Positions 3,001 to 62,686 of a stretch of 64,000 nt of DNA are shown one piece after another; position 1 is the stretch's first letter; every line of letters starts with the position of its first letter. This DNA is from Argopecten irradians (taxonomy: Eukaryota; Mollusca; Bivalvia; Pectinida; Pectinidae): contig NC_091135.1 in assembly GCF_041381155.1 (NCBI RefSeq), positions 67,111,067 to 67,175,066 on the forward strand, given 5' to 3'. The translations under genes and the position numbers were made by a program. The notes beneath the pieces were generated by a model that was not told where the DNA came from, did no database searches, and worked only from the letters and a program-made list of their open reading frames with translations.

Positions 3001-5185
3001 TGTGATGTATCTCCCAAATCTCAGGGTAGGTATAGTGATGTATCTCCCAAATCTCAGGGTTGGTATAAGTGATGTATCTCCCAAATCTCAGGGTAGTATA
3101 GTGATGTATCTCCCAAATCTCAGGGGTGTGATGTATCTCCCAAATCTAGGGTAGTATGTGATGTATCTCCCAAATCTCAGGGTAGTATTGTGATGTATCT
3201 CCCAAATCTCAGGGTAGGTATTAGTGATGTATCTCCCAAATCTCAGGGTAGGTATTAGTGATGTATCTCCCAAATCTCAGGGTAGGTATTGGTGATGTAT
3301 CTCCCAAATCTCAGGGTGTATGTGATGTAAAATCTCAGGGTGTATAGTGATGTATCTCCCAAATCTCAGGGTAAGTATTGGTGATGTATCTCCCAAATCT
3401 AATGGTAAGTATTGTGATGTATCTCCCAAATCTCAGGGGTAGTATCTCCAATCTCAGGGTAAGTATTGGTGATGTATCTCCGAAATCTCAGTGTAGGTAT
3501 TAGTGATGTATCCCCCAAATCTCAGGGTAAGTATTGGTGATGTATCTCCCAAAGCTCAGGGTAGGTACTGCTGATGTATCTCTCAAATCTCAGGGTAGGT
3601 ATTGGTGATGTATCTCCCAAATCTCAGGGTAGGTATTGGTGATGTATCTCCCAAATCTAAGGGTAGGTATTAGTGATGTATCTCCCAAATCTCAGGGTAA
3701 GTATTGGTGATGTATCTCCCAAATCTCAGGGTAGGTATTAGTGATGTATCTCCCAAATCTCAGGGTAGGTATCAGTGATGTATCTCCCAAATCTCAGGGT
3801 AAGTATTGGTGATGTATCTCCCAAATCTCAGGGTAATTATTAGTGATGTATCTCCCAAATCTCAGGGTAAGTATTTGTGATGTATCTCCAAAATCTCTGG
3901 GTAGGTATAAGTGATGTGTCTCCCAAATCTCAGGGTAGGTATCAGTGATGTATCTCCCAAATCTCAGGGTAGGTATCAGTGATGTCTCCCAAATCTCTGG
4001 GTAGGTATCACTGATGTATCTCCCAAAATCTCAGGGTAAGTATTGGTGATGTATCTCCCAAACCTCAGGGTAGGTATTAGTGATGTATCTCTCAAATCTC
4101 AGGTAAGTATTGGTGGTGTATCTCCCAAATCTCAGGGTAGGTATCTGTGATGTATCTCTCAAATCTCAGGGTAAGTATTGGTGATGTATCTCCCAAATCT
4201 CAGGGTTAGTATTAGTGATGTATCTCCCAAATCTCAGGGTAAGTATTGGTGATGTATCTCCCAAATCTCAGGGTAGGTATCAGTGATGTATCTCCCAAAA
4301 TCTCAGGGTAAGTATTGGTGATGTATCTCCCAAACCTCAGGGTAGGTATTGGTGATGTATCTCCCAAATCTCAGGGTAAGTATTGGTGATGTATCTCCCA
4401 AATCCCAGGGTAGGTATCAGTGATGTATCTCCCAAACCTCAGGGTAGGTATTGGTAATGTATCTCCCAAATCTTAGGGTAAGTATTGGTAATGTATCTCC
4501 CAAATCTCAGGGAAGGTATTAATCATGTATCCCCCAAATTTCAGGGTATTTATTGGTGTTGTACCTCCCAAATCTTAGGATAGGTTTAATGATGTATCCC
4601 CAAAATCTCAGGGTAGATATAAGTGATGTATCTCCCCAAATCTCAGGGTAGGTATTAGTGATGTATCTCCCAAATCTCAGGGTAGGTATAAGTGATGTAT
4701 CTCCCAAATCTCAGGGTAGGTATAAGTGATGTATATCCCAAATCTCAGGGTAGGTATCAGTGATGTATCTCCCAAATCTTAGGGTAAGTATTGGTGATGT
4801 ATCTCCCAAATCTCAGGGTAGGTATCAGTGATGTATGTCCCAAACCTCAGGGTAGGTATTGGTAATGTATCTCCCAAATCTCAGGGTAAGTATTGGTGAT
4901 GTATCTCCCAAATCTCAGGGTTGGTATCAGTGATGTATCTCCCCAAATCTCAGGGTAGGTATTAGTGATGTATCTCCCAAATCTCAGGGTAGGTATTGGT
5001 GATGTATCTCTCAAATCTCAGGGTAAGTATTGGTGATGTATCTCCCCAAATTTTACGGTAAGTATTGGTGATGTATCTCCCAAATCTCAGGGAAGGTATT
5101 AATGATGTATCCCCCAAATCTCAGGGTAAGTATTGGTGTTATATCTCCCAAATCTAAAGGTAAGTATTGCTGATGTATCTTGGGG
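1..5185. repeat. 34-bp minisatellite array (about 150 units)
   Basis: A tandem array that runs off the left edge. The unit is 34 bp and contains GATGTATCTCCCAAATCTCA followed by GGGTAGGTATTAGT or the GGGTAAGTATTGGT variant. Units are highly similar over most of the array. A more indel-rich patch lies at about 540-860 and 2900-3440, and units become more diverged from about 3880 to the right edge. 34 is not a multiple of 3, so the short open frames here rotate through the repeat and are not genes. Read on +, the sense of the CCNDBP1 gene to the right, each unit has a 3' splice-site-like TCTCAG directly followed by a donor-like GGTAAGT or GGTAGGT. The array probably lies in an intron or upstream flank of that gene, since its 5' exons are missing from the window. 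Confidence 0.97.
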
Positions 5186-8300: not shown

Positions 8301-9107
8301 CTATTTTCCTCAGGAGTAATGGTTTGAGACTTTATTTTGACCTTATATCCTTTCACCCACTATTTACCTCAGGAGTAATGGTTTGAGACTTCATTGTGAC
8401 CTTCTATCCTTTCACCAACTATTTTGCCCATGAGTACTAGCTTGAGACTTCATTGTGACCTTCTATCCTTTCACCCACTATTTTCTCCAGGAGTACTCGC
8501 TTGAGACTTCATTGTGACATTCTATCCTTTCACCCACTGTTTTCCCCCTAGAGTAATGGTTTGAGACTTCATTGTGACCTTCTATCCTTTCACCCACTAT
8601 TTTCCCCAGGAGTACTGTCTTGAGACTTCATTGTGACCTTCTATCCTTTCACCCACTATTGTCCTTAGGAGTACTGGTTTGAGACTTCATTGTGACCTTC
8701 TATCCTTTCACCTACTATTTTCCCCATGAGTAATGGTTTGAGACTTTATTGTGACCTTCTGTCATTTCACCCACTATTTTCTTCAGGTGTACTAGTTTGA
8801 GACTTCATTGTGCATTCTATCCTTTCACCCACTATTTTCCTCAGGAGTAATGGTTTGTGACTTTATTTTGACCTTCTATCCTTTCACCCACTATTTTCTC
8901 CAGAAGTTCCCGCTTGAAACCTCATTGTGACCTTCTATCCTTTCACCCACTATTTTCCCCAGGAGTAATGGCTTGAGACTTCATTGTGACCTTCTATCCT
9001 TTCACCCACTTTTTTCCCCAGGAGTACTGTCTTGAGACTTCATTTTGACGTTCTATCCTTTCACCCACTATTTTCCCCAGGAGTACTGGTTTGAGACTTC
9101 ATTTTGA
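5363..9107. repeat. 59-bp minisatellite array (about 63 units)
   Basis: The period is 59 bp; for example AGTAATGGTTTGAGAC recurs at 5402 and 5461. Each unit contains TGTGACCTTCTATCCTTTCA, then CCCACTATTTTCCCCAGGAG, then TAATGGTTTGAGACTTCAT. Point variants are shared among neighbouring units (CCCCAACAG, CCTCAGGAG, TACTGGTTT), as expected from unequal exchange or slippage. On + each unit contains a long pyrimidine-rich run ending in CAG|G, a good match to a 3' splice acceptor. The array ends about 630 bp before the first visible CCNDBP1 exon. Confidence 0.97.
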
Positions 9108-9737
9108 CCCAAAGGTTAATGTCATTGTTCTCATGTATACAGCTAAATAGAGTTAAGTTTTCAGACAGTCTCTGCATTCATTCAAAGTCAAGTGAACTGA
9201 TCTGATTTGACCTTGACTCCTACAATGTACATCCTTTTGGATTAACAGCTGGCTGTCCAGGATTGCTGACTTGGTCAAATTTACGGAAGGATACAAGTGT
9301 TACTTAGTACATACTTGTTTTTAGAAGATCCAGTCCACTAAATGTACTTAATATCATATGGCCTTTCTTGTTGCTCTTGTTCCGCTTGTCACAAGTGTTG
9401 TCAATATTAATTTTAAGTTTCCAACAAAACTACACACTATATATGTAATTAATTTTATGCACTTTAAAGGAAAAAAAGAAATCATAAGTAATACTGGTAC
9501 TTCAAATTCATAATTACTTACTAATTAACATTGGAAGACTTCATTTCTAAAATGGCAGTATATTCAAAATGGTTAATCTTTGAAATTGGTGGAGACTCTG
9601 TGAATAGTTGTGGTTGTATATTTTAGGGATTTGAACAAAAAAATCTGTTAATAGCAGTAGTTAAAATAGCTGTTTTGTGCCATATACATAATGCCCATGT
9701 ATTTCTACTTGATAGTCCTGTTTTTATTTTCCTGCAG
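9108..9737 (+). other. intron sequence upstream of first visible CCNDBP1 exon
   Basis: AT-rich non-coding sequence that ends in a pyrimidine stretch and CCTGCAG, the acceptor of the exon at 9738. I see no exon, RNA gene or repeat in it. Confidence 0.6.
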
Positions 9738-12452
9738 GTTTGTGCCTTAGGAAGTGCCTAAAGTCAGCCGTCCTCAATGTGTTACAGGACTTACAGAGTT
9801 TGGTTCTGGTCATAGATAGCAATGGAGCTGGGTAAGTGTATATTATATACAATATATATAATAGGACTATATGGAATGGGCTCAAGCTAACCATTTATTT
9901 TCATTTTTTACTTTGAGATGTATCTGAATGATAATTTTGAAGTACAATATTTGTATGATGTGCCTTTGTAGGTCTCCAGAACAGCTACAGTCTACTGGCA
10001 TAGTTTGGCAGAATACCGACAGGTTCTCCAAGCTCCCGAAAGGTAAGAGGTCTGACATCAATACTTAACTTAGATGTTTACTGTGTATAGAATGGATTGG
10101 ATTCCATTTTGGTGACTTGTCATGTATATATACAAACATCTTTTACGGTTCATGTCAAATATAATATTTCATTAAGGGGGATCTTATTTCAATCTTAAAA
10201 AATATTTGCAGGGCATTATTTGAATGGCCATTTACATGTATATTGATGTGAAAGATTTTATTCTGTGAAAAGTGTGGGATGTATGTGATGAAATGATCTG
10301 TCATTTTAGATAATCGAGACGCTGTACTAGGGATAATGAAGGTATCACTAGAGTTAGTGAAGGATGCCCTCAGTGAAATGGAGGAGGTGAGTTTAATCTA
10401 TTTATTTCAGATACACTGTTAACATACTTATTTTAGCCCAGTAACACAAAAAAAACTGTAAATTAGGATTTATTACCACAGATACAAATTAGTGCTATTC
10501 GGTAGTTCAATACCGGAAATACTGGTTTACAAAATTTAGCGCTTTACACGATTTAGCACTTTACATGATTTATCGCTTTAGAGAGTGCTAAAACGCTGAA
10601 ATAAAAGTATCGCTGAAATGAGGGTGTTTGCAGTAATATGTTGATTTGCACTTTATCTTTATAAAGTTACAGTAGATATATGCATGTACTGAAATACATG
10701 ACATATGTATACTGAAAAGTTCATAGACACAATATCATAATTTCACTTTTTGATAAACTACTTTGTTTAGTCCTATCTGAGATAAAACATACAGAAGAAC
10801 TAATTGTTGTTGTTCTGGTAAGGCTGTAGAGAACGGGCCAGCTAATGACCTGGCAGAGGTGTTCGGGGCAGAAATGGATGAGCCTTCTAATGAGGATACA
10901 TGGACAGAGACGGACAAGACATTACTAGGGCCTTGTCTAGGTCTACTGAAGACAACTCGCTCATTACTGAAGAAGTCCAAAGAAACTGTCAGTAAGAGGG
11001 GCTCCTGTCACACTCCAGAGAATGTGTCACAGTTGGACGACTGCGCAGACTATGTTGAGCGACTCAGTCCAGCGGTAGATGAATTTTCTGCTAGCCTCTA
11101 TCCGCCAATGAGGTACTCAACAGTACAGGAAAATGTAAGTAAAAGATTTATCTAAACATCTACTAATGGAATGGTAATCAAGTATTATATAGATGTAAAA
11201 TATTGTTTTTAATATGTATCTTTAGTTTGTCATATGTTTCAGGCAAAAGATTTATACAACCTCCAGAAGAAAATTCTGTGTTTTCTTCGGTAAGTATATC
11301 ACAGTTTTAAATTTATTATAATGGCACTTTATTCTGCTATGCTACATGTATACAAATTAATTTATGTCTTAATATATATGTGTCTTAATACATATTTATA
11401 TATGTACTGTAAGCCACTTTATGCTTTGCTAGATACACATTTTTGTGTAAGCGGGTGAGCTGGAATGTGAATTCAGTTATCTAACAAATAATTACATAAA
11501 ACATCATTTTAATACACGATGTGTAAAGAGCGTTTGGATGCAACATGATGTATTCACGAATATGTTCAAAATAATGATGCAAAACAGTATATACAGGAAA
11601 ATAAAGAGGTTTATAGAAGTTCATTGCTATACTTTAGATGTACAAGTTATAAACAGATACATGTGTATATGATGTTGATTATGCTACCAATTTTATTACT
11701 GAATGCAAGGACGTATATGAGAAGGATAAGTCAAACTGGGTTTTGGGCATGTGCACTGACCGTGAAGTAGGACGACGACTGATTTTCCTTTGATATCCGC
11801 TGGTGCAGCCTTTGATGTAGCTTGTGGGTGCGAGGGTTACTGTCTTTGCTGTCATTTCATGAGCTGTCGTGTTTTTTAACGAAAATTTAAGACATTTCTT
11901 CTAAATCTTCAGTTCTTAAACAAGTACTAAACGTTGTGAAATTTAATTAACTTTGGTGTTTCGTTTGGCTCGATAGGACAAGTATTTGTTGAGAAATTTG
12001 GATTTTATTCCCGGTTCATATCATCTCGCGCGGTGTTTAGTAGTGTAAAGAGACAGTGACGAATCCTTCTCACTTATAAATCCTTGCTGAATTCTAGCAA
12101 TTTGATTCATGCAAATTATATAACATGTATGTAATTGTCAAATTGCTACATGTATGGTAATGATTTGATGCACTTCATTTATTATAATGCAATTAAAATG
12201 ATGCACTTATGCTACATAATTATTCTTGATTACTTTAGCAGTAAGCTGATTGTATATTGCAGATTACTATGTTACCTCTTTAATTGAGCTTTGTTGCTAA
12301 GATATATCGTTAATTGTTATTCTTTCTACAGGAAGAGTCACATGTGTAACGAGGACGACCAGAAGTGGGTGGACTTTCTGTTGAAAGCTAACCAACATAA
12401 CTGGGAGAACCTGAAGCAGATTACTGATACCATCCCCGATCCTGTCACCTGA
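9738..12452 (+). CDS. CCNDBP1: cyclin-D1-binding protein 1 homologue (GCIP), 3' six exons
   Basis: Six exons join in one frame: 9738-9831, 9972-10042, 10310-10386, 10823-11134, 11243-11289 and 12332-12452, with the stop TGA at 12450-12452. All introns begin GT and end AG. The 239 visible residues follow animal CCNDBP1 in order: an LRK...A.L.V helix, a DNRDAVLGIMKVSLELVKDA stretch (compare human DNKAAALLMLTKNVDFVKDA), the EMEE/AVE junction, an acidic insert, LLGPCLGLLKTTRSLLKK, then QLDD...LSPAVDEFSASLYPPM and the C-terminal KWVDFLLKA region. The family is a helical protein that binds cyclin D and HLH factors and restrains E2F and Id-type activity; that is family knowledge, not visible here. 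The N-terminal third must lie left of the window beyond the arrays. The exon 4 acceptor is AAG, not the usual YAG. The last codons and the stop lie in a 13-bp tandem repeat. Confidence 0.93.
11705..12086. mobile_element. short inverted-repeat element (MITE-like) in CCNDBP1 intron
   Basis: Left end CAAGGACGTATATGAGAAGGAT and right end ATCCTTCTCACTTATAAATCCTTG are imperfect inverted repeats of about 22 bp. CTGAAT occurs immediately outside both ends (11699-11704 and 12087-12092), consistent with a short target-site duplication. There is no coding capacity in about 380 bp. It lies in the intron between the exons at 11243-11289 and 12332-12452. A hAT-like origin is possible, but the duplication is too short to assign. 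Confidence 0.6.
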
Positions 12453-12510
12453 TCCTGTCACCTGATCCTGTCACCTGATCGTGTCACCTGATCTTGTCAC
12501 CTGATCGTGT
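12438..12510. repeat. 13-bp minisatellite spanning the CCNDBP1 stop codon
   Basis: About five tandem copies of GATCCTGTCACCT, with GATCGTGTCACCT and GATCTTGTCACCT variants. The first copy supplies the last codons (Asp-Pro-Val-Thr) and the TGA stop of CCNDBP1; the rest fall in the 3' UTR. Because 13 is not a multiple of 3, only the first copy is read as protein. Confidence 0.9.
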
Positions 12511-12676
12511 CTGATTGGATTAAACCATTCTGATGTCATTAACCAACAGACAGACTGATCACGCCTTTATCCAGTAGACTGCCAAGAATACAAGATTTTT
12601 AATCCCGCATGTGATAACATTAATCTAGACAAACAATCTGATTAAAATACATATCCTTATTATCACTACGTTTGAT

Positions 12677-38311: not shown

Positions 38312-41300
38312 TCATTTCTTTATTTTGGCCGTTTTCTCAGGTGGAGGTCTGTATCTCTGTCCGAGTTTGACTTCCTCCCCAAAGTAATGGTCACATAGTA
38401 ACACTGGACAGTCTGTGAATTCCACTTTATAATCGTAATACAGCGTAGTCTCCTCCGGTTCATTCAGCGAGGCCCCCTCATATCCCAGCTCCTTGAGGGT
38501 CATATCCGGGGGCAGCATGGCCTCCCGATTACGAGATTTATCACTGAACAAGGACAGTTTTGTGGACTGGATGCCAGTCAGCTCTGCTATCAGTTGTAAC
38601 AGACCACATACAGGTATGTGAGTGTGGACTAGTTCCTCCAAATGCCACGGATGGTCAGCGTTAGCGTGAAACGTCACAAACACCAATTCTAGTAACAGGT
38701 ACCTGTGTAACAAAACAACAAACGTCACAAACACCAATTCTAGTAACAGGTACCTGTGTAACAAAACAACGCTAGAATCTCACTTTTGTATACCATATGT
38801 CCATTTAGCTGTACATGAAATAGAAATGAAAAAAGCAAAAACGCTGACCCCTGTCATCTATTGAGCAGGTGAAGGTCTCCTGAAACATTCTCCTCAAGTT
38901 GGAAAGGGTATAGATCTAGACTTGTAGATTTCTTTGAAGATTTAACATATGTTTATGCAGTTAATAAGGAGTCAGATAAAGCCTTTCTCTCTAAAAGATA
39001 TATAGTTCTTTCATATGTACATATGTAGGATAGAACTATTCCACCCGAGGGTACAGAATTTTGGGTCAGAACCGAGGCTTGCCGAGGTTTCTGACCCAAA
39101 ATTCTGTACCCGAGGGTGGAATAGTTCTATCCTACATAATTTACATATGAAAGAGTTATTTTCTCACATTGCTTGTCGAATTACTTGCACGAAAGGTGAG
39201 GCAGCCATTTTGTAATAAAATCTTAACTTCTTAAATAATCGATCGATTTTAAAAATAACAACGCCATTCGAAAGAGCTTATCAAAGTTTGGTTTATATTG
39301 AAAATATAAACAAGAAATCTTAGGTAAAACGGTTTGAAATGCAAATTAAACAAATGAAATGGTAAATAAATCCGACAAATCAATCAAAATAGAAGAAAAA
39401 TGACGTCAACTTTGGCTGACATGACGTCATCTCATTGTTATTTCAATTGTGACGTCACAGCTATGTAAGATAGATTTATCTTACATAGCTGTCTTTCATG
39501 GGACAACTCTATCTTACATGGCTAGCTATGTGAAAGATATATAGTTCTCATTATTTACTTACCTGGGATTTTTTATCATGCTTGGTCCATTGATCCCCAT
39601 CTTACACTTTTTACAGTGCTCCATATTTTGGTCTGTTTTGATGAGAATATTTTCTGCCTCTTCTGCCTCTTTGTCCATCTCCTCCAATTCTCTGTTAAAC
39701 ATTAATGTAACAATTCTAGTAATAGCTATCATGTTTAGGACACTGAAAATTTAATTTAGATTGTTTCATCACACAGAAATATCATACTTATATGAAGACA
39801 GAAAAAGGCCAATATATTTGATTGTTGTTACTTACAATACTACATTTTTGAATTTAAAAAATATATTATTTTAGTTTTTGTTATTTAAATGCATCTTTTG
39901 TTTTACTTACCAGACAACTTAATCTGGGGTATGAAATATTTCTTGTGTTTCTACTTACCTGACATACTGAAGGCCTTTAGGAATATCATAATAGTCAATG
40001 TCACCACTGTTCTCTCGATCCATCAACTTGGCCAATAAATGTAGTTCTGTCCTGTTACAGATCACGCCCAGATCAAACATTCCTGTCAACAAATCACACA
40101 ATAATGTCTGTCTCAAAATAAGATTTTATAAAATGGTATAATATTTATATGTACGGCTAGTTTCTGTTTACTTCTCATTGATTACTTACTTATACACACA
40201 ATAACTGGATATAGAACAAATTATTTGTGAACTGAAACAAGAGTCGATGTTATATGTAGTAGTTATACACACAATAACTGGATATAGAACAAATTATTTG
40301 TGAACTGAAACAAGAGGGAATGTTATATATACTCAGTCAACAATCCACCCTCACAGTCAATAGTCCATCCAATAAGTTAACAGTCCACCCCATCAGTTAA
40401 TAGTCCATCTTTTCAGTCAATATTCCACCCTATCACTTAATAGTCCACCCCATCAAATAATAGTCCATCCTCTCAGACAAAAGTCCATCCTCTCAGTCAA
40501 TAACCTATCCCATCAGTTAATAGTCCACCCTCTCAGTCAATAGTCCATCCCATCAGTTAATAGTCCACCCTCTCAGTCAATAGTCCATCCCATCAGTTAA
40601 TAGTTCACCCTTTCAGTCAATAGTCCACCCCATCAATTAATAGTCTATCCTCTCAGTTAATAGTCCACCCTATAAGTCAATAGTCCATCCCATAAGGTAA
40701 TAGTCCTCCCCATCAGTAAATAGTCCTCCCCATCAGTTAAAAGTCCACCCTCTCAGTCAATAGTCCACCCTATAAGTCAATAGTCCATCCCATCAGTTAA
40801 TAGTCCACCCTATAAGTCAATAGTCCATCCCATAAGTTAATAGTCCATCCCATAAGTTAATAGTCCATCCCATAAGTTAATAGTCCATCCTATAAGTCAA
40901 TAGTCCATCCCATAAGTTAATAGTCCATCCCATCAGTTAATAGTCCACCCTATAAGTCAATAGTCCATCCCATAAGTTAATAGTCCACCCTTTCAATCAA
41001 TAGTCTATCCCATAAGTTAATAGTCAATCCCATCAGTCAATAGTCCATCCTATAAGTCAATAGTCCATCCCATAAGTTAATAGTCCATCCCATCAGTTAA
41101 TAGTCCACCCTATAAGTCAATAGTCCATCCCATAAGTTAATAGTCCATCCCATAAGTTAATAGTCCATCCCATCAGTTAATAGTCCACCCTATAAGTCAA
41201 TAGTCCATCCCATAAGTTAATAGTCCACCCTTTCAATCAATAGTCTATCCCATAAGTTAATAGTCAATCCCATCAGTTAATAGTCCATCCTATAAGTCAA

Positions 41301-50300: not shown

Positions 50301-53300
50301 TAACTCTTATTCCTCACCTGACTTGAAATCGTCATAGTTGATATATCCTTCATCCTCCTGATCACATTTCTTAAAGAGTTCAACAGCTAACTGGGAATTA
50401 GCCGCTAACCAACGATCCATGCGATTTACAAATGGGATAAAGAACATTTTGTTTGCCTTTAGTTTATCAGCAGCCTTTTCCAGCTTTTCCTGAATAATAA
50501 ATGGAATTTTGTCAGGTTTGTCTTACTGTAAATGATTGTTATTCACTCTTGTTCTGCAAAAATCATTTTCCTAGGACTATCAATATATTGACATCTTTAA
50601 GTATTCAATCAAAAACAATTAAAAGTTGATCATTCAGATACCTGATGAAACCTTCTATCAAGGTAAATATTTTTGTTTATTCTGTTATTTATATAAAATA
50701 TGTCGCATCCATTTTATGAATAGCTTATTATAGTGCTATTTAGACAAAGGTCACAAATCAACATCATATTCTGATAGCCCACGCTACAAAACAAATGGTC
50801 ATTGAATAGCTATATAAGCATAGTTTTAAAACAAAGTTAGGAACTCAATGGTCAGACAGTACTCGTATCACCATATAAGTAAAACTGTCACATTGTAAGG
50901 TCAATAAACTCTTACCAAAGCTTTGTCTGCAGTATGACGCCACAGTGATGTCAATAAACCCTTACCAAAGCTTTGACTGCAATGTGACGCCACTGTGATG
51001 TCATTGTGATGTCACTGTGATGTAAATACACCCTTACCAAAGCTTTGTCTGCAGTGTGATGTCACTGTGGTGTTAATACCCTTACCAAAGCTTTGCCTGC
51101 AGTGTGATGTCACTGTGCTGTAAAAAAAAAACTTACCAAAATTTTGTCTGCAGTGTGATGTCACTGTGATGTCACTGTGATGTCATTGTGATGTCACTCT
51201 GATGTCACTCTGATGTCACTCTGATGTCACTCTGATGTGATTGTGATTTCACTGTGATGTCGCTCTGATGTCACTGTGATGTCACTGTGATATCACTCTG
51301 ATGTCATTGTGATGTAAATAAACCCTTATCAAAGCTTTGCCTGCAGTGTGATGTCACTGTGATATCACTCTGATGTCATTGTGATTTCAATGTTTTATAA
51401 ATAAACCCTTACCAAAACTATGTCTGCAATGATGACACTCTGATGTCATTGTGATGTAAATAAACCCTTACCAAAGCTTTGCCTGCAGTGTGATGTCACT
51501 GTGATGTCACTCTGATGTCATTGTGATGTCACTGTTTTATAAAAAAAAAACCTTACCAAAACTATGTCTGCAATGATGTCACTCTGATGTCATTGTGATG
51601 TCACTGGGATGTAAATAAACCCTTACCAAAGCTTTGCCTGCAGTGTGATGTCACTGTGATGTCACTGTGATGTAAATAAACCCTTACCAAAGCTTTGTCT
51701 GCAGTGTGATGTCACTGTGATGTCATTGTGATGTCACTGGGATGTAAATAAACCCTTACCAAAGCTTTGTCTGCAGTGTGATGTCACTGTGATGTCATTG
51801 TGATGTCAATAAAGCTTTGTCTGCAGTGTGATGTCAATAAACCCTTACCAAAGCTTTGTCTGCAGTGTGACGCAATAGTGATGTCAATAAACCCTTACCA
51901 AAGCTTTGTCTGCAGTGTGATGTCACTCTGATGTCATTGTGATGTCACTGTGATGTAAATAAACCCTTACCAAAACTTTATCTGCAGTGTGACGCACTGT
52001 GATGTAAATAAACCCTTACCAAAGCTTTGTCTGCAGTGTGATGTCACTGTGATGTCATTGTGATGTCACTTTGATGTAAATAAACCCTTACCAAAGCTTT
52101 GTCTGCAGTGTGATGTCACTGTGATGTCAATAAACCCTTACCAAAGCTTTGTCTGCAGTGTGATGTCACTGTGATGTAAATAAACCCTTACCAAAGCTTT
52201 GTCTGCAGTGTGATGTCACTGTGATGTCAATAAACCCTTACCAAAGCTTTGTCTGCAGTGTGATGTCACTGTGATGTAAATAAACCCTTACCAAAGCTTT
52301 GTCTGCAGTGTGATGTCACTGTGATGTCAATAAACCCTTACCAAAGCTTTACCAAAGCTTTGTCTGCAGTGTGATGTCAGTGTGATGTCACTGTGATGTA
52401 AATAAACCCTTACCAAAGCTTTGTCTGCAGTGTGATGTCACTGTGATGTCAATAAACCCTTACCAAAGCTTTGTCTGCAGTGTGATGTCACTGTGATGTA
52501 AATAAACCCTTACCAAAGCTTTGTCTGCAGTGTGATGTCACTGTGATGTCACTGTGGTGTAAATAAACCCTTACCAAAGCTTTGTCTGCAGTGTGATGTC
52601 ACTGTGATGTCACTGTGATGTAAATAAACCCTTACCAAAGCTTTGTCTGCAGTGTGATGTCACTGGGATGTGATGTAAATAAACCCTTACCAAAGCTTTG
52701 TCTGCAGTGTGATGTCACTGTGATGTAAATAAACCCTTACCAAAGCTTTGTCTGCAGTGTGATGTCACTGTGATGTCATTGTGATTTCACTTTGATGTAA
52801 ATAAACCCTTACCAAAGCTTTGTCTGCAGTGTGATGTCACTGATGATGTAAATAAACCCTTACCAAAGCTTTGTCTGCAGTGTGATGTCACTGTGATGTC
52901 ACTGTGATGTAAATAAACCCTTACCAAAGCTTTGTCTGCAGTGTGATGTCACTGTGATGTAAATAAACCCTTACCAAAGCTTTGTCTGCAGTGTGATGTC
53001 ACTGTGATGTAAATAAACCCTTACCAAAGCTTTGTCTGCAGTGTGATGTCACTGTGATGTAAATAAACCCTTACCAAAGCTTTGTCTGCAGTGTGATGTC
53101 ACTGTGATGTCACTGTGATGTAAATAAACCCTTACCAAAGCTTTGTCTGCAGTGTGATGTCACTGTGATGTCACTGTGATGTAAATAAACCCTTACCAAA
53201 GCTTTGTCTGCAGTGTGATGTCACTGTGATGTAAATAAACCCTTACCAAAGCTTTGTCTGCAGTGTGATGTCACTGTGATGTAAATAAACCCTTACCAAA

Positions 53301-56300
53301 GCTTTGTCTGCAGTGTGATGTCACTGTGATGTAAATAAACCCTTACCAAAGCTTTGTCTGCAGTGTGATGTCACTGTGATGTCACTGTGATGTCACTTTG
53401 ATGTAAATAAACCCTTACCAAAGCTTCTTTGTCTGCAGTGTGATGTCACTGTGATGTCACTGTGATGTAAATAAACCCTTACCAAAGCTTTGCCTGCAGT
53501 GTGATGTCACTGTGATGTAAATAAACCCTTACCAAAGCTTTGTCTGCAGTGTGATGTCACTGTGATGTAAATAAACCCTTACCAAAGCTTTGTCTGCAGT
53601 GTGATGTCACTGTGATGTCACTGTGATGTCACTGTGATGTAAATAAACCCTTACCAAAGCTTTGCCTGCAGTGTGATGTCACTGTGATGTAAATAAACCC
53701 TTACCAAAGCTTTGTCTGCAGTGTGATGTCACTGTGATGTCACTGTGATGTAAATAAACCCTTACCAAAGTTTTGTCTGCAGTGTGATGTCACTGTGCAT
53801 GTAAATAAACCCTTACCAAAGCTTTGCCTGCAGTGTGATGTCACTGTGATGTCATTGTGATGTCACTTTGATGTAAATAAACCCTTACCAAAGCTTTGTC
53901 TGCAGTGTGATGTCACTGTGATGTAAATAAACCCTTACCAAAGCTTTGTCTGCAGTGTGATGTCATTGTGATTTCACTTTGATGTAAATAAACCCTTACC
54001 AAAGCTTTGTCTGCAGTGTGATGTCACTGTGATGTAAATAAACCCTTACCAAAGCTTTGTCTGCAGTGTGATGTCACTGTGATGTCATTGTGATTTCACT
54101 TTGATGTAAATAAACCCTTACCAAAGCTTTGTCTGCAGTGTGATGTCACTGTGATGTCACTGTGATGTAAATAAACCCTTACCAAAGCTTTGTTTGCAGT
54201 GTGATGTCACTGGGTCATTGTGATGTCACTGTGATGTCAATAAACCCTTACCAAAGCTTTGTCTGCAGTGTGATGTCACTGTGATGTATGTCAATAAACC
54301 CTTACCAAAGCTTTGTCTGCAGTGTGATGTCACTGTGATGTCACTGTGATGTAAATAAACCCTTACCAAAGCTTTGTCTGCAGTGTGATGTCACTGTGAT
54401 GTCACTGTGATGTAAATAAACCCTTACCAAAGCTTTGTCTGCAGTGTGATGTCACTGTGATGTCATTGTGATGTCACTTTGATGTAAATAAACCCTTACC
54501 AAAGCTTTGTCTGCAGTGTGATGTCACTTGGATGTAAATAAACCCTTACCAAAGCTTTGCCTGCAGTGTGATGTCACTGTGATGTAAATAAACCCTTACC
54601 AAAGCTTTGTCTGCAGTGTGATGTCACTGATGATGTCACTTGATGTAAATAAACCCTTACCAAAGCTTTGTCTGCAGTGTGATGTCACTGTGATGTGTAA
54701 ATAAACCCTTACCAAAGCTTTGTCTGCAGTGTGATGTCACTGTGATGTCATTGTGATATCACTTTGATGTAAATAAACCCTTACCAAAGCTTTGTCTGCA
54801 GTGTGATGTCACTGGGATGTAAATAAACCCTTACCAAAGCTTTGTCTGCAGTGTGATGTCACTGTGGTGTAAATAAACCCTTACCAAAGCTTTGTCTGCA
54901 GTGTGATGTCACTGTGATGTCATTGTGATTTCACTGTGATGTAAATAAACCCTTACCAAAGCTTTGTCTGCAGTGTGATGTCACTGTGATGTCACTGTGT
55001 CATGTAAATAAACCCTTACCAAAGCTTTGTCTGCAGTGTGATGTCACTGTGATGTAAATAAACCCTTACCAAAGCTTTGTCTGCAGTGTGATGTCACTGT
55101 GATGTAAATAAACCCTTACCAAAGCTTTGTCTGCAGTGTGATGTCACTGTGATGTAAATAAACCCTTACCAAAGCTTTGTCTGCAGTGTGATGTCACTGT
55201 GATGTCACTGTGATGTAAATAAACCCTTACCAAAGCTTTGTCTGCAGTGTGATGTCACTGTGATGTAAATAAACCCTTACCAAAGCTTTGTCTGCAGTGT
55301 GATGTCACTGTGATGTAAATAAACCCTTACCAAAGCTTTGTCTGCAGTGTGATGTCACTGTGATGTAAATAAACCCTTACCAAAGCTTTGCCTGCAGTGT
55401 GATGTCACTGTGATGTAACTGGGATGTAAATAAACCCTTACCAAAGCTTTGTCTGCAGTGTGATGTCACTGTGATGTAAATAAACCCTTACCAAAGCTTT
55501 GTCTGCAGTGTGATGTCACTGTGATGTCATTGTGATTTCACTTTGATGTAAATAAACCCTTACCAAAGCTTTGTCTGCAGTGTGATGTCACTGTGATGTA
55601 AATAAACCCTTACCAAAGCTTTGTCTGCAGTGTGATGTCACTGTGATGTGCAGTGTGATGTCACTGTGATGTCACTGTGGTGTAAATAAACCCTTACCAA
55701 AGCTTTGTCTGCAGTGTGATGTCACTGTGATGTCACTGTGATGTAAATAAACCCTTACCAAAGCTTTGCCTGCAGTGTGATGTCACTGTGATGTCACTGT
55801 GATGTCACTGGGATGTAAATAAACCCTTACCAAAGCTTTGTCTGCAGTGTGATGTCACTGTGGTGTAAATAAACCCTTACCAAAGCTTTGTCTGCAGTGT
55901 GATGTCACTGTGATGTAAATAAACCCTTACCAAAGCTTTGTCTGCAGTGTGATGTCACTGGGATGTCACCGTGATTTCACTTTGATGTAAATAAACCCTT
56001 ACCAAAGCTTTGTCTGCAGTGTGATGTCACTGTGATGTCATTGTGATGTCACTTTGATGTAAATAAACCCTTACCAAAGCTTTGTCTGCAGTGTGATGTC
56101 ACTGTGATGTAAATAAACCCTTACCAAAGCTTTGTCTGCAGGTGTGTGATTCACTGTGATTCACTGTGGTGTAAATAAACCCTTACCAAAGCTTTGTCTG
56201 CAGTGTGATGTCACTGTGATGTAAATAAACCCTTACCAAAGCTTTGTCTGCAGTGTGATGTCACTGTGATGTCACTTGTAAATAAACCCTTACCAAAGCT

Positions 56301-59300
56301 TTGTCTGCAGTGTGATGTCACTGTGGTGTAAATAAACCCTTACCAAAGCTTTGTCTGCAGTGTGATGTCACTGTGATGTAAATAAACCCTTACCAAAGCT
56401 TTGTCTGCAGTGTGATGTCACTGTGATGTCACTGTGATGTCACTGTGATGTAAATAAACCCTTACCAAAGCTTTGTCTGCAGTGTGATGTCACTGTGATG
56501 TAAATAAACCCTTACCAAAGCTTTGTCTGCAGTGTGATGTCACTGTGATGTCACTGTGATGTCACTGTGATGTAAATAAACCCTTACCAAAGCTTTGTCT
56601 GCAGTGTGATGTCACTGTGATGTAAATAAACCCTTACCAAAGCTTTGTCTGCAGTGTGATGTCACTGTGATGTCACTGTGATGTAAATAAACCCTTACCA
56701 AAGCTTTGTCTGCAGTGTGATGTCACTGTGATGTCACTGTGATGTCACTTTGATGTAAATAAACCCTTACCAAAGCTTTGTCTGCAGTGTGATGTCACTG
56801 TGATGTCATGTGAAATAAACCCTTACCAAAGCTTTGTCTGCAGTGTGATGTCACTGTGATGTAAATAAACCCTTACCAAAGCTTTGTCTGCAGTGTGATG
56901 TCACTGTGATGTAAATAAACCCTTACCAAAGCTTTGTCTGCAGTGTGATGTCACTGTGATGTAAATAAACCCTTACCAAAGCTTTGTCTGCAGTGTGATG
57001 TCACTGTGATGTCATTGTGATTTCACTTTGATGTAAATAAACCCTTACCAAAGCTTTGCCTGCAGTGTGACTGTGATGTCACTGTGATGTCAAATATCAC
57101 CCTGTAACCAAACCCTTACCAAAGCTTTGTCTGCAGTGTGATGTCACTGTGATGTAAATAAACCCTTACCAAAGCTTTGTCTGCAGTGTGATGTCACTGT
57201 GATGTCATTGTGATGTCACTTTGATGTAAATAAACCCTTACCAAAGCTTTGTCTGCAGTGTGATGTCACTGTGATGTAAATAAACCCTTACCAAAGCTTT
57301 GTCTGCAGTGTGATGTCACTGTGATGTAAATAAACCCTTACCAAAGCTTTGTCTGCAGTGTGATGTCACTGTGATGTCATTGTGATGTCACTTTGATGTA
57401 AATAAACCCTTACCAAAGCTTTGTCTGCAGTGTGATGTCACTGTGATGTAAATAAACCCTTACCAAAGCTTTGTCTGCAGTGTGATGTCACTGTGATGTA
57501 AATAAACCCTTACCAAAGCTTTGTCTGCAGTGTGATGTCACTTGTGTAATAAACCCTTACCAAAGCTTCTGCAGTGTGATGTGTAAATAAACCCTTACCA
57601 AAGCTTTGTCTGCAGTGTGATGTCACTGTGATCATTGTGTCACTGTGGTGTAAATAAACCCTTACCAAAGCTTTGTCTGCAGTGTGATGTCACTGTGATG
57701 TAAATAAACCCTTACCAAAGCTTTGTCTGCAGTGTGATGTCACTGTGTGTCACTGTGTCACTTGTGTAAATAAACCCTTACCAAAGCTTTGTCTGCAGTG
57801 TGATGTCAGTGTGATGTCACTGTGATGTAAATAAACCCTTACCAAAGCTTTGTCTGCAGTGTGTGTGATGTCACTGTGATGTAAATAAACCCTTACCAAA
57901 GCTTTGCCTGCAGTGTGATGTCATTGTGATGTCACTGTGATGTAAATAAACCCTTACCAAAGCTTTGTCTGCAGTGTGATGTCACTGTGATGTAAATAAA
58001 CCCTTACCAAAGCTTTGCCTGCAGTGTGATGTCACTGTGATGTCACTGTGATGTCACTGTGATGTAAATAAACCCTTACCAAAGCTTTGTCTGCAGTGTG
58101 ATGTCACTGTGATGTAAATAAACCCTTACCAAAGCTTTGTCTGCAGTGTGATGTCACTGTGATGTAAATAAACCCTTACCAAAGCTTTGTCTGCAGTGTG
58201 ATGTCACTGGGATGTAAATAAACCCTTACCAAAGCTTTGCCTGCAGTGTGATGTCACTGTGATGTAACTGGGATGTAAATAAACCCTTACCAAAGCTTTG
58301 TCTGCAGTGTGATGTCACTTGGATGTCATTGTGATGTCACTTTGATGTAAATAAACCCTTACCAAAGCTTTGTCTGCAGTGTGATGTCACTGTGATGTAA
58401 ATAAACCCTTACCAAAGCTTTGTCTGCAGTGTGATGTCACTGTGATGTCACTGTGATGTAAATAAACCCTTACCAAAGCTTTGTCTGCAGTGTGATGTCA
58501 CTGTGGTGTAAATAAACCCTTACCAAAGCTTTGTCTGCAGTGTGATGTCACTGTGATGTCACTGTGATGTAAATAAACCCTTACCAAAGCTTTGTCTGCA
58601 GTGTGATGTCACTGTGATGTAAATAAACCCTTACCAAAGCTTTGTCTGCAGTGTGATGTCACTGTGATGTAAATAAACCCTTACCAAAGCTTTGTCTGCA
58701 GTGTGATGTCACTGTGATGTCATTGTGATTTCACTTTGATGTAAATAAACCCTTACCAAAGCTTTGTCTGCAGTGTGATGTCACTGTGATGTAAATAAAC
58801 CCTTACCAAAGCTTTGTCTGCAGTGTGATGTCACTGTGATGTCATTGTGATTTCACTTTGATGTAAATAAACCCTTACCAAAGCTTTGTCTGCAGTGTGA
58901 TGTCACTGTGATGTCACTGTGGTGTAAATAAACCCTTACCAAAGCTTTGTTTGCAGTGTGATGTCACTGTGATGTAAATAAACCCTTACCAAAGCTTTGT
59001 CTGCAGTGTGATGTCACTGTGATGTCACTGTGGTGTAAATAAACCCTTACCAAAGCTTTGTCTGCAGTGTGATGTCACTGTGATGTCACTGTGATGTAAA
59101 TAAACCCTTACCAAAGCTTTGTCTGCAGTGTGATGTCACTGTGATGTAAATAAACCCTTACCAAAGCTTTGTCTGCAGTGTGATGTCACTGTGATGTAAA
59201 TAAACCCTTACCAAAGCTTTGCCTGCAGTGTGATGTCACCGGAATGTGATATGTAAATAAACCCTTACCAAAGCTTTGTCTGCAGTGTGATGTCACTGTG

Positions 59301-62300
59301 ATGTAAATAAACCCTTACCAAAGCTTTGCCTGCAGTGTGATGTCACTGTGATGTACTGGAGTAAATAAACCCTTACCAAAGCTTTGTCTGCAGTGTGATG
59401 TCATGTCACTGTGATGTAAATAAACCCTTACCAAAGCTTTGTCTGCAGTGTGATGTCACTGTGATGACTGTGATGTAAATAAACCCTTACCAAAGCTTTG
59501 TCTGCAGTGTGATGTCACTGTGATGTAAATAAACCCTTACCAAAGCTTTGTCTGCAGTGTGATGTCACTGTGATGTAAATAAACCCTTACCAAAGCTTTG
59601 TCTGCAGTGTGATGTCACTGTGATGTAAATAAACCCTTACCAAAGCTTTGTATGCAGTGTGATTTCACTTTGATGTAAATAAACCCTTACCAAAGCTTTG
59701 TCTGCAGTGTGATGTCACTGTGATGTAAATAAACCCTTACCAAAGCTTTGTCTGCAGTGTGATGTCACTGTGATTTCACTTTGATGTAAATAAACCCTTA
59801 CCAAAGCTTTGTCTGCAGTGTGATGTCACTGTGATGTCACTGTGATTTCACTGTGATGTAAATAAACCCTTACCAAAGCTTTGTCTGCAGTGTGATGTCA
59901 CTGTGATGTCATTGTGAATTCACTGTGATGTAAATAAACCCTTACCAAAGCTTTGTCTGCAGTGTGATGTCACTGTGATGTCATTGTGATGTCACTGTGA
60001 TGTAAATAAACCCTTACCAAAGCTTTGTCTGCAGTGTGATGTCACTGTGATGTCATTGTGATTTCACTTTGATGTAAATAAACCCTTACCAAAGCTTTGT
60101 CTGCAGTGTGATGTCACTGTGATGTAAATAAACCCTTACCAAAGCTTTGTCTGCAGTGTGATGTCACTGTGATGTCACTGTGATTTCACTTTGATGTAAA
60201 TAAACCCTTACCAAAGCTTTGTCTGCAGTGTGATGTCACTGTGATGTAAATAAACCCTTACCAAAGCTTTGTCTGCAGTGTGATGTCACTGTGATGGATG
60301 TAAATAAACCCTTACCAAAGCTTTGTCTGCAGTGTGATGTCACTGTGATGTAAATAAACCCTTACCAAAGCTTTGTCTGCAGTGTGATGTCACTGTGATG
60401 TCACTGTGATGTAAATAAACCCTTACCAAAGCTTTGTCTGCAGTGTGATGTCACTGTGATGTAAATAAACCCTTACCAAAGCTTTGTCTGCAGTGTGATG
60501 TCACTGTGATGTCACTGTGGTGTAAATAAACCCTTACCAAAGCTTTGTCTGCAGTGTGATGTCACTGTGATGTCACTGTGATGTAAATAAACCCTTACCA
60601 AAGCTTTGTCTGCAGTGTGATGTCACTGTGATGTCACTGTGATGTAAATAAACCCTTACCAAAGCTTTGTCTGCAGTGTGATGTCACTGTGATGTAAATA
60701 AACCCTTACCAAAGCTTTGTCTGCAGTGTGATGTCACTGTGATGTCACTTTGATGTAAATAAACCCTTACCAAAGCTTTGTCTGCAGTGTGATGTCACTG
60801 TGATGTAAATAAACCCTTACCAAAGCTTTGTCTGCAGTGTGATGTCACTGTGATGTAAATAAACCCTTACCAAAGCTTTGTCTGCAGTGTGATGTCACTG
60901 TGATGTAAATAAACCCTTACCAAAGCTTTGTCTGCAGTGTGATGTCACTGTGATGTAAATAAACCCTTACCAAAGCTTTGTCTGCAGTAGAAACCTTCTT
61001 CTTCCTCAGTCCCTTTTTCTTCTTTTTTCCTCCTTTACCGTCAGCTGCGCTGCCTGGTTTTAGTTTCCCATCAGCATCAGTGATATCCATCATGGTGCCA
61101 GCGTCAGCTTCCAACCCTTCCACTTTATCCGAGTCATGTTTTCCTGATGAACTCCTTATAAAAGAGATTTTGGTTCTATATACTACCATATTTTTATACA
61201 TTTCTGTACATGAACTAGAAGTTACATGTACATATAAACAGGTCATGCTTTTTATCATAATAAATACACTGTCAGGTTTAAAGCACATGTACATGCTGTA
61301 GTAGACAGTAATCCAAAGATTCAACCTCTTTAAAAAAATCTGATTTAATTAATGTACTCAGGGCCAATCAATTGGCCCATAATAGAAAAGCAGATTCAAC
61401 ATCAGAAATCTTCAGATTTTGTAAGACAGATGCTATACATATTTTTACACTTGTAGATCTAGCCCTATTTTCAAAGTCATATATAAGCACATATATATGT
61501 TCAAAGTTTGTATATTAATTTTGCTAATTCAGTTGTTTTTAAATAAAGAGCACACGTTTAGATAATGATATTCAAATTAAACATAAAAGTTTAGCCAAAA
61601 AACAATTGAAAAATCCCCACAAATATTTACTGTAGAGGGGTGGATAATCCCCCTGATATCGGAAGGTCTAAAACGATACGATACACTAAAACAATACACC
61701 ATATGTATTGACGATACAATGGACCTCCTTTTCAAATTCAGTTGACCATTGTGTTTTGAATATTGTGATATGTACGATAAAAGACAATTTTGATAAAATT
61801 TCTATAACCTGGAAAAAATCTACCAAACATTTGATTCGGTTTATCATACGTGTTCTTAATTTCTGTCAATTTGTATTCTTAGTTATGAAAAGGCATTTCT
61901 AATCCATCTAGGTGACACAGATGCCTTAATTAAACACTTCCTTTTGATTGAAATGCTCTTACTTGAATGATGCTTTAGAGCAAATTTTGTTTTGGAATTT
62001 CCTATTTCTATAACGAAAACAGCAGGTTGAGTAATGTTAAAACGATACAGCGATGTTGTGTATCGATATTTGACACGCTGCTGAAAACCGATATCTATCG
62101 GTCAATATATTGATCCAGCCCTACTAGGCTACTACTGTACATGTACCATAAAAATGCTGTACTAGATATTCTGTACACATGTATACATGCATACAATACA
62201 GGCTTACATATATATATTATGTAGCCTACAAGTACATTCATTGTACATTATCCCGAGATACTCTGGTCCTGACACCAGACTTAGACATTATGACAGATAA

Positions 62301-62686
62301 ATGCCTAGTTTAGGTGTATGCGTGAAAAAATGGATTCCTATCATACGGGTAGAAAAATTATTCATTTGTTGAAAAGACCAAGGTAACTTTAATTAAGTGA
62401 CGCTTCTCGGCAGTAATATTTTGTAATTCTATAAGTAGTCTGAATCGGAGATAATATGAATCGATACCAAACGGTTTCGGCTAATTCCAGATTTTCAAGT
62501 ACAAGTGCACTCTGGCCTTAAACCTGACATCTATCTGTCATAGTGTCTAACCTAGTTGTAGGGGAATATACTACATCTCTCTTCTTCCTATCATACAAGG
62601 GATTGGGTGCAGTTCACTTCATTAATCAAAACTATTCAATCTTACTTTCCTTTCTTCTTCCCTGACTTCTTCCCCTTTTTAGGCAT
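38312..62686 (-). CDS. EF-hand protein with a possible ubiquitin-like C-terminus (six exons, 346 aa)
   Basis: Exons on -: 62686-62646 (ATG at 62686), 61154-60971, 50489-50318, 40082-39959, 39691-39563 and 38702-38312 (TGA at 38314-38312). Phases agree at every junction and the total is 1041 nt. Residues 1-75 are basic and Lys-rich (MPKKGKKSGKKKGK, GGKKKKKGLRKKK). EF-hand-like loops follow at about 115-135 (CDQEDEGYINYDDF) and 155-170 (DRENSGDIDYYD), both with Asp at position 12. A short acidic helix and HCKKC come next, then a globular C-terminal domain of about 130 residues (HIPVCGLLQLIAELTGI...MTLKELGYEGASL...TTLYYDYKVEF) that has a ubiquitin-like look, and a basic end (PPPEKTAKIKK). The Lys-rich N-terminus plus EF-hands recalls ciliary proteins, but that is a guess; I do not recognise the family. 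Intron 2 holds a 10-kb satellite made from its own splice junction. Intron 3 holds the 20-bp satellite and transposon complex. The last acceptor is duplicated. Confidence 0.88.
38319..38324 (-). promoter_or_regulatory. AATAAA inside the last codons of the EF-hand gene
   Basis: On - the hexamer AATAAA lies in the codons for the final Lys-Ile-Lys, 4 bases before the stop. If it is the poly(A) signal, the 3' UTR would be only about 5-25 nt. I did not see another AATAAA on - before the 18-bp array. Use is uncertain. Confidence 0.3.
38669..38770 (-). repeat. 51-bp tandem duplication creating two 3' splice sites
   Basis: Two copies, 38669-38719 and 38720-38770, look identical. Each contains on - the acceptor GTTGTTTTGTTACACAG followed by the first 34 bases of the last exon. 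The proximal acceptor starts the exon at 38702, the distal one at 38753. Using the distal site adds exactly 51 nt with no stop, encoding 17 extra residues that begin YLLLELVFVTF and so repeat the normal exon start. Confidence 0.9.
38996..39546. mobile_element. fold-back element with 15-bp flanking direct repeats, in intron 5
   Basis: AAGATATATAGTTCT occurs at both ends (38996-39010 and 39532-39546), like a target duplication. Just inside the left end is a hairpin of about 145 bp (39011-39153): TCATATGTACATATGTAGGA, then TAGAACTATTCCACCCGAGG, then GTACAGAATTTTGGGTCAGA, mirrored after a short loop (GAGGCTTGCCGAGG). A second smaller hairpin lies at 39462-39490 (CTATGTAAGATAGATTTATC...). The - intron is spliced from 39562 to 38703, so it would be transcribed with the gene. 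Confidence 0.65.
40191..40329. repeat. 73-bp tandem duplication in intron 3
   Basis: TATACACACAATAACTGGAT, followed by ATAGAACAAATTATTTGTGA, recurs after 73 bp (40191 and 40264) with a few differences near the right end. It lies about 110 bp from the acceptor of the exon at 40082. Confidence 0.9.
40333..41722. repeat. 20-bp satellite array (about 69 units)
   Basis: The unit TAGTCCATCCCATAAGTTAA is 20 bp and keeps exact register: every 60-base stretch from 40441 to 41700 holds exactly three units. Subtypes (CCACCCTATAAGTCAA, CCATCCCATCAGTTAA, CTATCC) are arranged in a higher-order pattern; 40921-41160 and 41161-41400 are near-identical 240-bp (12-unit) blocks. It lies in intron 3 of the EF-hand gene. 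Two orphan units at 50217-50250 appear to be its detached end. Confidence 0.96.
41758..42091. mobile_element. TTAA-flanked MITE inserted in the LINE
   Basis: AGTGAACAGTCGGGC at the left and CCCAACTATTCACT at the right are inverted ends, directly flanked by TTAA (41754-41757 and 42092-42095). TTAA target duplications are the hallmark of piggyBac-type transposition. With one TTAA removed, the flanks read through as part of the reverse-transcriptase frame, so the insertion site is unambiguous. The 334 bp have no coding capacity. Confidence 0.8.
42245..42835. mobile_element. diverged long palindrome (fold-back element) inserted in the LINE
   Basis: Several block pairs are inverted around a centre near 42541: GGCCTTAATTTTT with AATTAATTTTGGGGCC (42278 and 42785), CTATGACGTCATCAA with TTGATGACGTCATAG (42408 and 42672), and TGGCCGCCACCTTGGAGCAA with TGCTCCACGAAGGCGGCCA (42499 and 42580). 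It interrupts the LINE between the YADD segment and the KTNSMLIG segment. Exact ends are uncertain. Confidence 0.6.
43276..43925. mobile_element. insertion of unknown type in the LINE 3' half
   Basis: Non-homologous sequence of about 650 bp separates two LINE coding segments. It contains a GAGTGT-rich simple region (43590-43670). No clear inverted ends or target duplication were found, so its nature is unknown. Confidence 0.4.
44508..45985. repeat. duplicated block, copy 1 (segments A1 and B1)
   Basis: The copy starts AAGCTAACCGATACTTACAT right after the LINE tail; copy 2 starts with the same words at 45986, 1478 bp on. Segment A (to about 45290) shares GCTGAGGTGACCAA, GGAATAGCAGTTGAGA, AGACCACGATCGAG and GACGTCTCCTTGCAGACGGT with copy 2. 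Segment B (from about 45483) shares AATGTTCGGGATCAAATCAT, TATTGTTCCGCT and GTGATAAAGACCTTCCAA with 49739-50202. Several TGACGTCA palindromes lie at 45410-45490. No convincing open frame was found. Confidence 0.8.
46794..48757. mobile_element. element of about 2 kb with CCCATGTCAAA ends and AGCAGT-rich subterminal repeats
   Basis: It begins TGTCCCATGTCAAA and ends TTTGACATGGGG, inverted with respect to each other. Both ends are packed with AGCAGT, GGCAGT and ACTGCCTAA words in both orientations (46810-47290 and 48495-48745). Near the left end a block of about 85-95 bp with AACTGCCTAAAATGTCCA and ATATGGCGCA is repeated two to three times. The AT-rich centre has no transposase. The structure is that of a non-autonomous DNA transposon with subterminal binding-site clusters. 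Confidence 0.65.
48758..49738. other. unassigned AT-rich sequence inside the intron-3 complex
   Basis: No homology to the rest of the window, no coding frame with a recognisable protein and no clear ends. The frames at 48999-49187 and 49173-49391 are treated as chance. Confidence 0.4.
50217..50250. repeat. orphan units of the 20-bp satellite
   Basis: TAGTCCATCCCATCAGTAAA and a partial TAGTCCACCCCATC match the satellite at 40333-41722, 8.5 kb away, in the same orientation. They directly follow segment B2. Confidence 0.85.
50905..60988. repeat. 10-kb satellite amplified from exon-2/intron-2 junction of the EF-hand gene
   Basis: The basic unit is 50 bp on +: GTGATGTAAATAAACCCTTA, CCAAAGCTTTGTCTGCAGTG, TGATGTCACT. 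Zero to several extra 11-bp modules (GTGATGTCACT, with GTGATGTCATT and GTGATTTCACT variants) are inserted per unit. There are roughly 180 units. On - each unit reads ACTGCAGACAAAGCTTTG|GTAAGG, identical to the last 18 bases of exon 2 (60988-60971) and its donor. The array therefore overlaps the exon end and every copy carries a full 5' splice site. Units near the exon are nearly uniform; those at 50905-51600 are the most diverged and irregular. Confidence 0.97.
60966..60974 (-). promoter_or_regulatory. authentic 5' splice site of exon 2
   Basis: TTTG|GTAAGG closes the exon at 60971. This is the copy attached to the complete exon (acceptor at 61155); all other identical copies lie downstream within the intron. 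Confidence 0.85.
61155..61631. other. intron 1 of the EF-hand gene, right of exon 2
   Basis: AT-rich non-coding sequence. The exon-2 acceptor reads TTTTATAAG|G, an AAG acceptor with a weak pyrimidine tract. Nothing else is recognised. Confidence 0.45.
61632..62124. mobile_element. possible hAT-like non-autonomous element in intron 1
   Basis: The right end, read inward, is GTAGGGCTGGATCAATATAT and the left end is GTAGAGGGGTGGATAATCCC. Both continue into GATATCGG-like sequence, giving imperfect inverted ends. TAGGGCTG-type ends are common in hAT elements. The interior has ACGATAC-rich words and no transposase. No clean 8-bp duplication was seen, so the call is tentative. Confidence 0.4.
62125..62645. 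other. intron 1 of the EF-hand gene, left of exon 1
   Basis: Non-coding AT-rich sequence up to the exon-1 donor (GGAAA|GTAAGA on -). Nothing recognised. Confidence 0.45.

Follow-up and report, generated by a model that had tools for sequence, protein, structure and literature searches.

Most of intron 2 of an EF-hand gene in the bay scallop, Argopecten irradians, is occupied by a minisatellite whose first repeat is the end of the preceding coding exon. The array lies in a stretch of 64,000 nucleotides (C2:67111067-67175066, hereafter the window) of the 846-Mb assembly, and each of its units repeats the 18 coding bases that close exon 2 together with the 5' splice site GTAAGG. We consider that the array is an exon-anchored minisatellite close to neutral, that the 5'-most donor is the one used, and that the same kind of event occurred independently at other exons; we put the probability of this reading at roughly 0.78. 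The anatomy of the array, the direction of its founding, its restriction to one locus and its recurrence at other exons can be read from the DNA sequence itself.

The host gene lies on the minus strand and is predicted to have six coding exons (Table 1) and an uncharacterised product. The predicted product of 346 aa is 100% identical to a database protein, P0003 ('uncharacterized protein [Argopecten irradians]', 'isoform X2'), and given this identity over 346 aa the exon model is evidently correct. The product matches EF-hand_6 at 26 bits (cut-off 25), and the named relatives found by protein search include molluscs, starfish, hemichordates and amphioxus.

Anatomy of the intron 2 array

Units were counted on the minus strand with a 31-base core, allowing up to 11 mismatches. 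A preliminary description of this DNA had reported about 180 units; the large array stands, and our count is 173. The core is exact in 140 units, GT is intact in 171 and the complete GTAAGG in 168, which confirms that the units carry the coding end of exon 2 and its donor. Among the 172 unit spacings, 77 are 50 bp, 32 are 61 bp and 31 are 72 bp, and the unit length follows 39 + n x 11 bp, a 39-base core being joined to one to three copies of an 11-mer. In the sense direction a unit runs from ACTGCAGACAAAGCTTTG through GTAAGGGTTTATT to the 11-mers. Exactly 18 nt are common to the exon 2 end and the units following it. The 15 units nearest exon 2 match the core perfectly, and the distal end of the array is degenerate. 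The same search over 11.2 kb of flanking sequence gave a single place with 10 mismatches and nothing closer, so the one array unit at that level could be due to chance.

With its head-to-tail units in the range of about 10-100 bp, many copies and locus-specific unit, the array would be classed as a minisatellite. The AG and GT of the consensus unit are 11 nt apart, and a recursive splice site with a zero-length exon, in which AG directly precedes GT, is ruled out.

Direction from exon to array

The preliminary description proposed the exon 2 end as the founder of the array and looked to unrelated loci and to relatives for evidence to the contrary; neither supplied it. A 25-mer over the exon/intron junction (GCAGACAAAGCTTTGGTAAGGGTTT), searched at ≤3 mismatches, matches the assembly 169 times and the window alone 169 times. 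Repeat counts from the whole-assembly search may be lower bounds, and at ≤3 mismatches no match to the 25-mer was found outside the array. A dispersed or mobile splice-site element (introner) is rejected, since at this mismatch limit there are no copies at unrelated loci.

The end of exon 2 encodes T-A-D-K-A-L, followed by E-K-L-E-K. Of the 37 non-self rows in a 38-row alignment, 32 have a conserved ..(S/A/D/E)(E/D/Q)(K/R).. site where exons 2 and 3 join, as located by a motif script. The script chose the wrong site in P0003 and P0002; by reading the alignment, the exon-2 half of the site is present in P0016 and P0002, and P0009, P0038 and P0001 do not reach the junction site. The motif encoded by the exon 2 end is conserved among molluscs and echinoderms, as well as in hemichordates and amphioxus.

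P0002 is the exon 2 frame and P0001 the exon 3 frame of one relative, in each case with 1736 bases as the longest contig. If both frames lie on a common contig, as we suppose, intron 2 of this relative may be shorter than ~1.4 kb. Exon 2 in P0002 ends in ..PKADKAL, then reads VGFISAYLTC, and holds no second copy of the exon end. The degenerate back-translation of VGFISAYLTC fits the intron part of the scallop unit with a score of 7.9, above the shuffle mean of 3.0, and 2 of 300 shuffles score at least as high. Since the exon end is conserved in relatives and the satellite is private to this locus, the exon came first, and the direction is from exon to array.

Recurrence at other exons

The proposal that exon-derived junctions can seed satellites extends to further genes. 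In 294 contiguous kb surveyed around the window (L010, L009, the window and L011-L031), three more coding exons, one in a GCIP gene and two in an AFG3L2-like gene (one of them looser), have their end and donor amplified into the adjoining intron. GCIP exon 3 ends in ..VGLVSLFYCLPKSQG before GTAGGT, and 13 exon nt are repeated exactly in a 34-bp array. The GCIP exons match GCIP_N / PF13324 (E 2.9e-9); the protein assembled by eye gives E 5.3e-35, and GCIP_C 9.7e-19. The best PDB match of the AFG3L2-like gene is AFG3-like protein 2 (E 2.2e-26). A 31-bp array follows its exon ending in ..YKEFVSNYLSKGL, of which 24 nt are repeated in the next two units, and a 48-bp array follows the exon ending in ..AIERVVGG. 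Arrays also lie away from junctions in the same genes (59 bp, 38 bp, 20 bp and, within GCIP intron 1, 34 bp), so exon anchoring is not a feature of all arrays.

Six donor-bearing arrays were then chosen blind and their 5' edges inspected: two among those listed for AGGTAAGT triplets and four among those listed for CTGGTGAGT triplets, where a further one was the AFG3L2-like array. A coding exon was found at the edge in two, one SLC35F and one probable NRF-like. The SLC35F exon ends in ..LLCGCAVTSGLLSNQGVNIPT before GTGAGT and matches PF06027 (E 5.2e-6; 26.6 bits, cut-off 21); the TRF (Tandem Repeats Finder) consensus of its array has a single difference from the exon end in 28 bases. The other exon ends in ..KQKGRINWFMFYFYRFWR before GTAAGT. 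It has no Pfam match itself, and we take it to resemble an NRF-type acyltransferase; a nearby NRF match is weak (E 0.039). The edge units of this array share an imperfect identity with the exon, with exact runs of 6 to 13 nt.

Do 5' splice sites seed arrays?

Beyond tolerating such events, 5' splice sites could actively seed minisatellites, and donors would then be over-represented in arrays genome-wide; transcription-linked R-loops and breaks at exon ends are examples of how this might come about. This proposal is additive to the reading of an exon-anchored array, and we rate it a serious possibility, a little short of even odds. Four coding-exon arrays fall among the ~21 to 22 minisatellite families of the 294 kb, our own collapse of 26 array rows; on the assumption that the stretch holds 40 to 150 coding donors, this gives a P of 3e-5 to 4e-3, which becomes 6e-4 to 0.025 once the discovery case is set aside. 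In 6 of the 26 rows the highest donor score exceeds that of random sequence at p<0.05 (Fisher p 3e-6), but these rows contain split arrays and the EF-hand array's own p is 0.18.

Across the genome, AGGTAAGT triplets number 6785 versus 896 reversed and AGGTGAGT triplets 3651 versus 867, while acceptor-like TTTTRCAG triplets reach just 4319 versus 3348. On the other hand, CTGGTGAGT triplets are not enriched (732 versus 612), and two neutral octamers matched to AGGTAAGT in composition yield 1699 and 4264, and both results weaken a claim of strong genome-wide donor enrichment. The triplet counts are, moreover, per unit and dominated by large arrays. A Pfam scan of array-edge frames gave one weak match (E 0.0038) among 45 frames on the donor side and none among 34 on the acceptor side; it missed known exons and so had little power. 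Genome-wide counts exceed the controls unevenly and are no more than suggestive of active seeding.

With similar reserve, and somewhat less than half convinced, we propose a class of 'donor satellites' in the bay scallop. These would be kilobase-scale arrays, each privately founded on the end of one coding exon plus its 5' splice site, with growth in every case into the intron downstream, since junctions would seed duplication and extra donors after the authentic site would be tolerated, unlike extra acceptors.

Donor conservation and predicted effects on splicing

Several observations weigh against the reading of near-neutral arrays founded independently at coding exons. Four of the six blind arrays have no recognisable coding exon at the inspected edge, and the SLC35F edge units share only 1 uninterrupted nt with the exon. 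The FtsH_ext match in the exon before the 31-bp AFG3L2-like array (E 2.5e-4; 21.7) is below the Pfam cut-off of 25.5, the units of the 48-bp array show a loose similarity to their exon, with exact identity over 1 to 10 nt back from the donor, and that exon carries a 1-nt frame discrepancy. The signs that selection maintains the internal donors are mixed and not clear: in a crude count of the GCIP array, GT mismatch is 0.011 versus 0.132 elsewhere, and GT changes are few in the small NRF-like (6 units) and SLC35F (12 units) samples. Furthermore, the growth mechanism, the choice of donor and neutrality are parts of the reading that we infer.

The crude GCIP count is among the points in favour of a function for the EF-hand array, in which its ~170 sense U1 sites would act as a decoy, a kinetic trap or a shield of the long intron from premature polyadenylation. 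The intact GT in nearly all units and the occurrence of AATAAA 168 times on the antisense strand and 0 times on the sense strand fit this idea. However, GT mismatch in the EF-hand array (0.012 and 0) is close to that elsewhere in the unit (0.015), and the donor is no better kept than the remaining positions. Counted per column, GT in the GCIP array (0.021 and 0.041) changes less than a typical position (0.05), yet four other positions change even less. GT does not differ from the rest in the AFG3L2-like arrays (0.013 and 0.026 versus 0.018; 0.045 and 0.030 versus 0.046). The orientation of AATAAA follows from the unit sequence, and no relative is known to retain the array. We therefore regard a function of this kind as improbable.

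The preliminary description also suggested that each unit acts as an 11-nt microexon, giving variable transcripts, with the frame restored when three are included. The elements it pointed to are present, as CAG stands ahead of the 11-mer in 168 of the 173 units and a donor behind it; the restoration of the frame did not hold up. One inclusion leads to a stop after 88 residues. Two or three lead to a stop after 78, because two joined 11-mers read TGA; three 11-mers keep the length register, yet the stop is encountered, and in-frame use of three microexons is excluded. Moreover, no pyrimidine tract precedes the CAG, the intron between adjacent 50-bp units would be 39 nt, and the database protein P0003 skips the array and contains no 11-nt insert. 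Variable microexon use thus seems very improbable. When five downstream array donors were tested in silico, each yielded a premature stop, after 92 or 101 residues.

Two further alternatives carry still less weight. Homogeneous repeats are difficult to assemble, but an assembly artefact is hard to reconcile with unit lengths of 50, 61 and 72 bp in irregular order, with the clustering of some variants and with comparable arrays at other loci, and we give it hardly any credence. The identity of the exon 2 end with the array units could also arise if a pre-existing satellite had invaded exon 2 and supplied its end, an idea already contradicted by the site kept in relatives and by the confinement of the satellite to one locus, and to which we attach next to no probability.

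Proposed origin and relation to known systems

For the exon-anchored minisatellite we envisage an initial tandem duplication spanning the 18 bases that close exon 2, the 5' splice site and ~32 intron bases. Extra copies would accumulate on the intron side only, being tolerated there alone because the 5'-most copy still joins the exon to an intact donor. The array may have expanded to its present 173 units by slippage or unequal exchange, the nested 11-bp repeat included. The first donor, which is transcribed earliest, would be used in splicing, and the others would be bystanders that bind U1 at most; their use would give a premature stop. The array would then be close to neutral for the protein, and the same kind of event has arisen independently at other exons of the genome. 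A duplication over an acceptor would put extra acceptors ahead of the real one and should be harmful, presumably giving rise to an asymmetry between the two intron ends.

Long intronic minisatellites are known from the first intron of earthworm metallothionein genes, as described in PMC12783039, and from seabream growth hormone (GH) introns, as cited in PMC3045353. Like such intronic minisatellites (variable number tandem repeats, VNTRs), the scallop array is locus-specific and runs head to tail, its units are tens of bases long, and it contains nested and higher-order repeats. Unlike those described in the available parts of these sources, it is founded on an exon end and its own donor, with a coding exon as the first repeat.

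Hellsten et al. (2011) reportedly described the creation of introns through tandem duplication across a splice-site sequence. As in the scallop, tandem duplication of exon sequence provides additional splice sites, but there a new intron is created, whereas here it is the donor of an existing intron that has been multiplied, with no implication of a new intron. In telescripting, U1 protects against premature polyadenylation. Scallop intron 2 is likewise dense in U1-complementary sites; unlike in telescripting, its donor positions are not clearly preferentially conserved. Introners and transposon-borne satellites are dispersed repeats with splice sites; the scallop array resembles them in bearing splice sites but stands at a single locus. 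A limited literature search found no report of satellites founded on an exon end and donor, which does not establish their absence from print.

The array names a coding-exon edge as the origin of a satellite, and this origin is directly readable since the founder remains under coding constraint at the array edge, where it also gives polarity to satellite growth. Tandem repeats (TRF score >=50) make up 30% of the 294 kb, and minisatellite rows (unit <=130 bp) 23%; exon-edge arrays would explain part of the intron lengthening in such a stretch. These arrays also offer a natural test of 5' splice-site choice, as the donors in competition are nearly identical and number from tens to hundreds.

Other features of the window and its surroundings

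Table 1. Features of the window, with positions counted from its first base.
Feature	Position	Strand	Basis
EF-hand gene exon 1, coding part from ATG	62646..62686	-	exon prediction; product identical to P0003
Exon 2, last 18 nt forming the first unit of the array	60971..61154	-	exon prediction and unit comparison
Founder segment in exon 2, ACTGCAGACAAAGCTTTG, encoding T-A-D-K-A-L	60971..60988	-	exact 18-nt identity with next units; site conserved in relatives
5' splice site GTAAGG of exon 2	60965..60970	-	donor implied by database protein
Satellite, 173 units of 50/61/72 bp, most of intron 2	50905..60988 (approx.)	-	repeat listing and unit count
Exon 3, phase 0 join with exon 2	50318..50489	-	prediction and database protein
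Exon 4, EF-hand	39959..40082	-	prediction and database protein
Exon 5	39563..39691	-	prediction and database protein
Exon 6 up to stop codon; start 38753 with alternative acceptor	38313..38702	-	prediction and database protein
Perfect 51-bp x 2 tandem duplication across exon 6 acceptor	38669..38770	-	tandem-repeat listing
34-bp satellite seeded at GCIP exon 3 end, window part	1..5180	+	array starts at L009:8071 and measures 7,110 bp in full; 210 TRF copies
Open segment with GCIP exon 4 (LCLRKCLKSAVLNVLQDLQSLVLVIDSNGAG), 3' of 34-bp and 59-bp arrays	9716..9832	+	exact exon ends not fixed
13-bp x 5.7 array, starting in final GCIP codons and stop (..DPVT*) and continuing past stop	12438..12511	+	repeat listing

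The unit of the 59-bp array (5363-9109) resembles a strong 3' splice site on the plus strand (TTTTCCCCAG/G). An origin of this array from an acceptor was rejected, as the next GCIP exon is ~600 bp further and does not share the unit by eye. Two other arrays were set aside as exon-edge cases: a 52-bp array (93906-96539), with no exon seen at either edge, and a 42-bp array (148549-155158), with no coding exon seen at its edges and possibly a non-coding one. The latter array (L019-L020, window-based coordinates) holds ~158 copies with a perfect CAG/GTAAGT. In the AFG3L2-like gene, the 1-nt frame discrepancy of the AAA-lid exon (L015, window-based 106927-107090) reflects either an assembly error or a decayed copy.

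The 51-bp x 2 duplication at exon 6 of the EF-hand gene and the 13-bp GCIP array are smaller relatives of the exon-edge phenomenon. The duplicated acceptors of exon 6 are 51 nt (17 codons) apart and in frame, and the isoform X2 protein fits the downstream one.

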